NCBI GenBank assembly: GCA_000697355.1
Contig: JNEN01001275.1
Span: forward strand, 1 to 64,000
DNA length: 64,000 bases
Source: Syncephalastrum monosporum B8922
Lineage: Eukaryota > Mucoromycota > Mucoromycetes > Mucorales > Syncephalastraceae
Direction: 5' to 3'
The notes under the pieces were generated by a model that saw only the letters and a program-made list of their open reading frames with translations, had not been told where the DNA came from and ran no database searches. The position numbers were made by a program, and so were the translations under genes. Below, one piece after another: positions 53,440-56,414 of the stretch (the stretch's first letter is position 1; every line of letters begins with the position of its first letter).

Positions 53440-56414
53440 TTAACAGATCGCGCATACGTTGCTCGCGTTCGCACCCGCGAGCGGACAGTTGTCAATGGTA
53501 CCGTTAGCGTCCCAGCCGCCGTTACCCCACCAATCAGCAGACCTGCAGAGACATATAAGTGACTTTCCAGCGGATATCTCTCGCGCTGACTTACCAAGTG
53601 GATCCCGAGGTGACGGCGAAAATAACAATGGCAGCAATAGCGCAACCTTATTATTATAATTATGACCCGTTAGCATATTCGCATTGACAGTAGCATGATC
53701 TTATCATCTCGCACTCACCCGAGTCGAACGCCGCAGACGTGACATAGTTGTATTTCTCCCACCATTCGTGCCGGTGCTTGCGGAGCCAGTACATGAAAAT
53801 AAAGCCAACAGCACACCACATGGAAAAGTTCATGGGCACAGCCGGGGGCATCTATGGTTGGAGTGATGCGTGAGTACACACACACACAAGAGGAAGGCAT
53901 CGACTGCGTTTGCAAGAAAGAATGGAAACTTACCATGCCAGTCGCATTGAAGATCAAAGGAATATGGACCCACTTGAGCCAGCTGTTGGGGTATCGTTTA
54001 GATAAATACCAGAATGGAATAGGAAGAACAAAGCCGATGAGGAAGAACCACAGCATCGGACGATACGGCGAGTCTTCGCCAAACATTCTGCCAGGACCAA
54101 TGAGACCCCAAACGACAGAGGCAGAGTAAAATGTTCTGTAAGATACACGGTGAGTGATAGTTAAGCAGGTAAGATTTAGGTACTTACAAAGTATTGTTAC
54201 AGGTGAAGGGGTATCCTTGCGGTGTACAAAAGTTGGCCACTGAGTCCATGAGCCATCGAGCAGTGACGATGTTCATCAAACCACCCAGAAGCGTGCCAAT
54301 CATCTGTACAGTAAACATGGCTCGCGGGGGTACTTTGGTATAGTGACCAAGCTAGAGAAGACTTGAGTAACATGCAGATGATGATATGCTTCGTGATTTA
54401 CCTTGAGATCACCCACAAAAGTGAGACATTGGTATAAACTGATGTAACCATATGTCTTGAATGTAACGTTGGCAATAGGGTATCCAGGCCGAATATAGCC
54501 GATAATGAACTCTGTAATGACGTTCAAGCTAAACAAGTTCCCCGTTAGTATCTTTCGTTGCAGGTTTCTGCACATTGCTTACCCTGGTTGCTGAGGAAGT
54601 GATGAAGCAAAGACAAGCAGATTAAGCAGTTAGTAAGTTCCTGAACGCGGGGAAAGCATACTCATGCGCAGAAAAGTAGCTTACTTCTATAAATGGTGAA
54701 AAAGCAGGTTTAGCGAGATGACTTTGTGTGACAGCAATATCTCTTTGGACTTACGGTTGGTGAGTGCCTGAATGATGCCAATAGGGAGGACGAAAACGAA
54801 AGCGATCACGACAGCGAGGATGAGAGCCCACCAGGGGAGATAAATTGGCCAGCAATAAATGACAGCAAACGAGATGCCAAAAGCAATGATAAACACGGAT
54901 GTGTACCACCATTCAGGAACCTCTGGATAAGCTCGCATGAGCTTACCGTGGATGTCTTCATCTTCGTTGCGGGAGCGCTTGAAGCGAGCAATGATGTCCT
55001 TGCCGTGGTACAGGACGGTATGCGTAATGACGGAAGTGAGACCTGCGAACATGATACCGTAGGTGAATGCAAAAAAGGTGCTCATGTTGAGCGGGCCGTA
55101 GGTCTCGTAGGCGGTGGCGTTCAGTGTCTTCTCAGGGGTCATGACCATGTCGATATCAAAGATTTCACCATTTTTGTCAAAGAGCTCCTGGGTAATGATG
55201 GGGAAGCGCTGACCGTCCCAGACGTTGGTGTAGTAGAGCGCAGGCGCAATAACCCAGGAAACGATGACGAAGCCTACCGCAATGTTGGCAATAGCCCACC
55301 ACGGGACGACGAGGGGCGAGAGCAGGTACGACGCAATGGTTGACCAATCAAAGGAAACAGCAAGCATGCCCAGTGCATTGGCGCCACCAGTCAGCTGCGC
55401 TAGAACACGATTTTCCGGATTGATCCAGCACGCCCACGAAAAGAAGGCGAGAACGGAGAAGAAGTAGCCTGGCAGCCAGTAGTAGATGAACATGCCCACG
55501 AAGCAATACAAGAACCAGCGAATACGAGTGACACCGGTCCAGTTTCTTTGAAGGGTGGTGAGCATGAGTTAAGGCGATGTGCGTGATCTGACTTACTTGT
55601 CCTTGATGTGGAACGAGCGGAACAGAGCGATGTTGGCCAAGTTGGTGGGCCAGACCATCGATGGAGGGTATACAAGGAAGCGACGGCAGAGACCAGCCAT
55701 ACCGTATCCTAAGAGCTATATAGTAAAATTAACAACACCCGTTAGTGTATGCATCAGTCTATGACAATGCCAATATTTACCTGCGTGGTCCACACCATGA
55801 GAATGCCACCACCCCAGCCAATGTCTTGGCCATAGAACATCTTTTGAATCACAAGGATGTCAATGGCATAAGCAGTCGTGTAAGAGCAGTTGGCCATGGT
55901 AGTAATCAGGACGTGTTCTTTGAGGTTGAAAGGGCCCGGATTGAAGAAACGGGACTTGGGTATGATCTTCTCCATCGTTTTACCGATAGGGAAGGCCACC
56001 AACTGGACAACGAGCGGGGACAGGGTCATGGCATTCTTGCGAAAGTAAAAGAACTGGTTGATGAAGGACAGCAGACAAGTAAAGACTATGCCGAGGAGAA
56101 ACATGCGGAACGTATACACCGGCAATGTGGGGTCGTCGGTGCTTTGAAAACCCCAGCAAGAGTCAGCTTCCTTTCCTGCGACATATAAAGTAGAATTTCC
56201 TAACGTACTTGGGCACAATCGCGCGCACTTCTTCGATGGGCGAGTCTTCCTCGTCCTCCATGTGCACCTGCATATTATGCACGCTTCCATCGATGTATGT
56301 TTTTTCTTCCTTCTCGATAGACACCGTCTCGGGCATGGGCCCAGGCGCATCATGCTGGTCGACTACCTTTTCGTCGACCGGTACAGGTTGTTGCTCATCT
56401 TCGGTTGACCGCAT
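53440..56414 (-). CDS. Oligopeptide transporter, OPT family
   Basis: 12 exons: 56414..56209, 56141..55781, 55715..55597, 55545..54755, 54686..54685, 54590..54583, 54528..54402, 54351..54188, 54135..53934, 53851..53719, 53646..53595, 53542..53440; 755 aa, normal for the family. An acidic cytosolic N-terminus leads to NTDDPTLPVYTFRMFLLG, then many membrane segments with family motifs: FNPGPFNLKEHVLITTMAN, YGMAGLCRRFLVYPPSMVWP, ALTNQQPGLNVITEFIIGY, YGYISLYQCLTFVGDLKLGH, PPRAMF, GLIGPGRMF and a Trp/Asn-rich end. A plasma-membrane proton-coupled importer of small peptides or glutathione-like compounds is expected. The conserved NQQPG is assembled from a 2-nt exon and an 8-nt exon. Three introns end in AAG (56142, 55546 and 53647 are their 3' ends on the plus map). 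Regulation by nitrogen supply is usual in fungi but not shown here. Confidence 0.93.
54583..54590 (-). other. 8-nt micro-exon of the OPT transporter
   Basis: CAACCAGG, flanked by ...TTCCTCAG and GTAAGC on the minus strand. It encodes Gln-Pro and the first two bases of Gly in NQQPG. Its neighbours are introns 54591..54684 and 54529..54582. Confidence 0.8.
54685..54686 (-). other. 2-nt micro-exon of the OPT transporter
   Basis: AA, flanked by a strong acceptor (ATTTATAG) and a strong donor (GTAAGC) on the minus strand. With the C ending exon 4 it forms the CAA codon of the first Gln of NQQPG. Without it, the following exons fall out of frame and no other AG upstream gives an open reading. Confidence 0.7.

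Follow-up and report, generated by a model that had tools for sequence, protein, structure and literature searches.

A predicted 2-nt exon beside an 8-nt exon in an oligopeptide-transporter gene of Syncephalastrum monosporum

The OPT gene and its neighbours

The window, i.e. the whole 64,000-nt stretch of contig JNEN01001275.1 of Syncephalastrum monosporum B8922 that was analysed, harbours on its minus strand (56414-53440) a gene for an OPT-family oligopeptide transporter. The spliced model codes for 755 residues and comprises 12 exons and 11 GT-AG introns. The Pfam OPT profile (PF03169) matches the spliced product with an E value of 8.1e-198 and 659.4 bits. The curated cut-off of 25.8 is thus exceeded and nearly the whole profile is covered (positions 2-621 of 623), which places the product in this family, as the first-pass annotation had proposed. 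Judged from its sequence, the gene is intact and belongs to the peptide-transporter family, with a predicted role in transport. The best protein matches are OPT transporters of Mucorales, with 71% identity to those of Lichtheimia, Radiomyces and Apophysomyces, and no protein with higher identity is present among the best 120 of 2533 matches. A search of solved structures yielded nothing significant (best E value 0.27), and the two matches of an exon-4 peptide pattern in IMG/VR are not relatives.

The model is open throughout, from the start codon at 56414 in exon 1 (56209-56414, 206 nt) through exon 2 (55781-56141, 361 nt) and exon 3 (55597-55715, 119 nt) to exon 4 (54755-55545, 791 nt), which ends with AAC C. 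On the other side of two tiny exons, exon 7 (54402-54528, 127 nt) starts with C TTG AAC GTC and is followed by exons 8 (54188-54351, 164 nt), 9 (53934-54135, 202 nt), 10 (53719-53851, 133 nt), 11 (53595-53646, 52 nt) and 12 (53440-53542, 103 nt), the last of which contains the stop codon TAA.

Directly downstream of the OPT gene, on the same strand, lies a short gene (~52100-52852) whose product we take to be a secreted, Ser/Thr-rich cell-surface protein; two of its introns were used for splice-site training. Several long open frames in a row on the minus strand (18830-33513) presumably code for a dynein heavy chain, and the long frames opposite them are probably mirror artefacts. Two adjoining plus-strand genes (58074-59939 and 60295-62028) have similar frames and are perhaps a tandem duplicate; we assume that their products have an F-box-like start and a leucine-rich body. 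The window also contains a pyruvate kinase gene with at least five introns (~15950-17830, minus strand), whose best foreign matches are those of Circinella, Zychaea, Fennellomyces and Apophysomyces, with 81-83% identity.

Ten coding bases between exons 4 and 7

Exons 4 and 7 are separated by intron 4 (54687-54754, 68 nt, GTAAGT...TTTATAG), intron 5 (54591-54684, 94 nt, GTAAGC...TACTAAC...CTCAG) and intron 6 (54529-54582, 54 nt, GTAAGC...TACTAAC...TTTAG). The dinucleotide AA (exon 5, 54685-54686) remains between the first two of these introns, and the 8-nt exon 6, CAACCAGG (54583-54590), between the last two. The letters at the junctions are AAC C/GTAAGT at 54755/54754, TTTATAG/AA/GTAAGC, CTCAG/CAACCAGG/GTAAGC, and TTTAG/C TTG AAC at 54528. 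Joined, exons 4 to 7 read AAC CAA CAA CCA GGC TTG, i.e. N-Q-Q-P-G-L. Both tiny exons are thus flanked by AG and GT and are required for the frame and for a conserved protein sequence, as befits microexons.

We aligned 71 relatives taken from the best 120 of the 2533 matches. The motif stretch is ungapped in 70 of them, the exception being a plant protein (P0053), and hence 10 nt are required between exons 4 and 7. The motif reads NQQPGLN in 52 of the 71 relatives and a close variant of it in 18 (NQTPGLN in 11 of these), the last one being gapped. We then enumerated all GT-AG arrangements with no more than three introns, each 40 nt or longer, and with exons as short as 1 nt. A single one of the 633 open, in-frame arrangements reads NQx[PA]GLNV, and a single one of 5082 when GC donors are included as well. 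In both cases, it is the combination of AA (54686-54685) and CAACCAGG (54590-54583) that is also found in the spliced model, and no arrangement with one or two introns in this enumeration yields the motif.

We compared this layout with shuffles of the 226-nt stretch that kept the outer donor and acceptor and preserved dinucleotides. A filling of 10 nt in one or two exons that fits the family arose in one of 20,000 shuffles, and in none of 20,000 when GTAAG was required at the internal donors. Chance is thus a poor explanation of the layout as a whole. When the 8-nt exon was kept as fixed, some AG-NN-GT occurred in 14.9% of 100,000 shuffles, a 2-nt exon coding for Q in 1.6%, and a Q-coding one followed by GTAAG in 0.025%. 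The 2-nt exon alone is thus modest evidence and becomes striking only when its frame, codon and donor strength are taken into account.

Every mis-splicing outcome considered introduces a premature stop: skipping of either tiny exon or of the two together, and retention of intron 4, 5, 6 or 4 together with 5 (seven of seven). If AA alone is dropped, the frame shifts and a stop follows at codon 535 of 755. The first-pass annotation had given the same coordinates and bases for both exons and the same joined reading, N-Q-Q-P-G; the letters bear these out, and the enumeration makes the reading unique. Its statement that both bases of AA are needed for the frame also holds, and its suggestion of a recursive-splicing intermediate, if AA is lost in it, fails on the stop at codon 535. 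It had further called NQQPG invariant, which is too strong, since 52 of the 70 ungapped relatives have NQQPGLN.

We next scored the splice sites against 28 introns of the genome, namely 8 of the OPT gene (introns 4 to 6 excluded), 14 of its closest paralog, 2 of the neighbouring gene and 4 of the pyruvate kinase gene, whose fifth intron was left out. The scores are leave-one-out values from a small set of four genes, the intron boundaries having been set by eye from protein continuity. With both this set and a first one of 24 introns, the donors of introns 4, 5 and 6 are the top three of the 11 GTs in the stretch, and the acceptor at 54687, just before AA, is the best of its 15 AGs. Among 176 unused GTs of the OPT gene, one scores as high as the 54684 donor. 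For intron 4, the donor scores at least as well as 11 and the acceptor at least as well as 25 of the 28 other introns; the corresponding numbers are 9 and 14 for intron 6. In intron 5, the donor scores at least as well as 7, and the acceptor, CTCAG/C, is the weak point, scoring at least as well as only 3 of the 28. This acceptor is the eighth best AG with the 28-intron set and the tenth of 15 with the 24-intron set. The branch motif is TACTAAC in introns 5 and 6, its A lying 40 and 17 nt from the intron end, respectively; intron 4 has a poorer CGCTAAA (5 of 7 positions match). The sites of introns 4 to 6 are within the range of the 28 other introns.

The intron-5 donor fell below all 24 introns of the first training set owing to a G at position -3. 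Addition of the four pyruvate kinase introns together with a larger pseudocount removed the low score as an objection. A G at this position is found in 2 of the 28 training introns, and donors such as GAC/GTAAGC and GAG/GTAAAT in the pyruvate kinase gene indicate that it is in use in this genome. The U1 RNA has one match in the genome, and its 5' end, AUACUUACCUG (read by eye on the reverse strand), is complementary to the usual donor.

We also considered that removal of intron 4 might rebuild a defective intron-5 donor, since with the 24-intron set GAA/GTAAGC no longer ranked below all others once intron 4 had been taken out. This idea was dropped, as the gap with the 28-intron set is just 7.1 versus 8.95 bits, and the energy of the U1 duplex at the intron-5 donor hardly changes upon intron-4 removal (-4.5 versus -4.7 kcal/mol). 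We infer an ordered splicing of introns 4 and 5 on steric grounds only.

Paralogs and the history of the introns

Genome searches covered the assembly of 27.5 Mb in 198 contigs. They revealed no near-identical second copy of the OPT gene, and the sole non-self nucleotide match, in seven pieces of 69-81% identity, is a paralog on another contig (C79). This closest paralog in the same genome (L021) is identical to the OPT protein in 550 of 762 aligned columns (72%). Seven of the 11 intron positions of the OPT gene recur in it, including that of intron 4, where codon and phase agree and the paralog exon likewise ends with AAC C. Behind its acceptor, TATATAG, the paralog continues uninterrupted with AG CAA CCT GGT CTG and has neither intron 5 nor intron 6. 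Since this acceptor directly precedes AG CAA, the AA of the OPT gene occupies the place of the paralog's AG, and the resulting codons, CAA and CAG, both specify Q.

The motif region is spanned as a single uninterrupted match in three further paralogs, L024 (46% identical) and the more distant L023 and L025 (23-25% identical, with gaps). Introns 5 and 6 are thus absent from all four alignable paralogs, a fifth one (L022) being outside this count. The simplest reading would be that both introns were gained in this lineage, as suggested by the paralogs of one genome. Alternatively, they may have been lost in the paralogs.

The sequence similarity between intron 4 and the paralog intron is weak, 10% of shuffles being as good, and their homology is therefore argued from position and phase. 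Intron 5 compared with the same paralog intron gave a value of 3%, among five comparisons. The idea that intron 5 arose as a duplicate of intron 4 was rejected, as local alignments among introns 4, 5 and 6 are no better than chance (equalled in 19-36% of 2000 shuffles). Similarly, an origin from a repeated element was rejected, the 156-nt stretch 54529-54684 having no second match in the genome.

The paralog has small exons of its own. One of 24 nt (L021:2662-2685) is located just upstream of the motif, and others are 34, 37 and 38 nt long.

Splicing of the two tiny exons and known counterparts

Three ordinary small introns, each presumably recognized by intron definition, very probably leave exons of 2 nt and 8 nt in an intact OPT gene. 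The identity of the gene, the frame, the site scores, the unique join and the paralog all argue for the splice-site reading of the two exons made in the first-pass annotation. According to this model, U2-type introns of 68, 94 and 54 nt would be packed so tightly that the coding sequence left between them amounts to just 2 nt and 8 nt. All three possess a donor, an acceptor and a branch-like motif and appear short enough for intron definition. Exon length need then not matter, each intron being recognizable across itself. Introns 4 and 5 are probably not assembled simultaneously but removed one after the other, since the acceptor AG and the donor GT are only two bases apart. Joining of C and AA to CAA would then restore N-Q-Q-P-G with the spacing that the family shows. 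As to the origin of this layout, the paralogs point to a gain of two introns in an exon that already started at the intron-4 acceptor, which would have split the initial ten bases of that exon into AA and CAACCAGG.

Two alternatives do away with the 2-nt exon by assuming a single long intron. In one of them, a 162-nt intron (54754-54593) ends with a non-canonical TC acceptor and is followed by a 10-nt exon, AGCAACCAGG. This join (AG CAA CCA GG) produces an mRNA that differs by one synonymous base (CAG instead of CAA), and both models encode the same protein, so that protein comparison cannot separate them. The paralog exon also opens with the same letters, AGCAACC, behind its acceptor. However, GT...TC introns are exceptional, and a canonical AG is available two bases downstream. 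An intron of 162 nt would also exceed each of the 28 others, whose lengths range from 49 to 102 nt, and TTTATAG/AA/GTAAGC would be left as a coincidence, although AG-AR-GTAAG arises in only 0.025% of shuffles. We consider this join very unlikely. The same holds for the idea that two bases are lacking beside the 8-nt exon, through an assembly error or a real deletion, in which case one intron would precede a 10-nt exon and AA would be fortuitous. The paralog reads AG/AGCAACC, and loss of one AG would give the letters of the window. Nevertheless, no homopolymer or tandem repeat was seen there by eye, the remainder of the gene is open and constrained, and the fused introns 4 and 5 would make a single intron of ~164 nt, again longer than any of the 28. 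A good Q-coding 2-nt exon would have to have appeared by chance, as it does in ~0.025% of shuffles.

Equally unlikely is a pseudogene, or a gene whose transcripts are normally mis-spliced, with the frame not kept. This proposal would fit with the truncation of the protein in all seven skipping or retention outcomes, but the 12 exons are open over the full length. In addition, comparison with the closest paralog gave pN 0.18 versus pS 0.79, and neither value differs much between the two sides of the junction. This indicates purifying selection, although at this saturated distance a recent loss of function would be invisible. Finally, introns 4 and 5 might form a stwintron or flank a zero-length recursive splice site, with no bases kept between them. 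Fungal stwintrons are removed by consecutive splicing and have a similar layout (excerpts of PMC6616335). In the OPT gene, exonic bases would be kept between the introns, the spacing of the family requires all 10 nt, and removal of AA breaks the frame. It would thus not harbour a stwintron in this sense, and we regard this explanation as hardly credible. The preferred model of three small introns shares with stwintrons the consecutive, intron-defined splicing of tightly packed fungal introns. In a stwintron, in contrast, one intron interrupts a splice signal of another, while here two coding bases separate complete introns (same excerpts).

A further idea builds on intron gain, the first new intron having been inserted 2 nt behind an existing acceptor. 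If the order of removal is obligate and failures truncate the protein, splicing might serve as an on/off check on peptide uptake, a proposal that we find rather doubtful.

Ultra-small exons are known and very rare. A search within open-licence papers for 2-nt exons or microexons gave nothing that looked relevant, wider searches listed nothing closer than the counterparts described below, and the excerpts of PMC13149111, PMC12409088, PMC8042270, PMC8469720 and PMC6224609 name no 2-nt exon.

The closest counterpart is the 1-nt exon of CYP621A genes in Fusarium, which occurs in 20 orthologues and for which two species provide RNA reads (excerpts of PMC12940212). As in the OPT gene, an ultra-small exon restores a conserved motif and the phase in a fungal nuclear gene, an overlong apparent intron is the clue, and an intron-free family member serves as the length standard. 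In contrast with the OPT gene, the CYP621A exon is of 1 nt rather than 2, has RNA support and is present in 20 orthologues, and those excerpts mention no second micro-exon alongside, unlike the 8-nt neighbour here. An 8-nt micro-exon that, like exon 6, falls within a conserved motif is found in the fungal gene CYP5141A1 of Phanerochaete chrysosporium, and the same excerpts mention no 2-nt neighbour for it. Arabidopsis, Drosophila and human have exons of 2-5 bp, 2 nt included, which are in the size class of AA (Volfovsky 2003, as cited in excerpts of PMC12940212). In plants, 1-nt exons are found in APC11 of Arabidopsis (PMC4674806) and in APC11 and VPS55 (PMC8831610). According to the excerpts of these two papers, these minimal-size exons are likewise needed for the frame and are constitutive, and they are conserved over many land plants. 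In contrast with the OPT exons, they have been tested with cDNA, that of APC11 also with reporter constructs. As small introns are recognized across the intron in fission yeast and Pezizomycotina (excerpts of PMC6616335), a 2-nt exon does not have to undergo exon definition.

The OPT gene thus offers a further, well-supported predicted example of already known ultra-small exons. It is distinctive in having two of them in a row and in belonging to an early-diverging fungal lineage. If confirmed by cDNA, it would extend ultra-small exons to Mucoromycota and present a 2-nt exon directly beside an 8-nt one, in a stretch of 226 nt that holds just 10 coding bases. It would also offer a clean test of the fungal spliceosome on an exon too short for adjoining acceptor and donor complexes, and bear on how new introns settle beside old ones. 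The case suggests, moreover, how a well-conserved transporter would be broken up by gene finders that bar such short exons.
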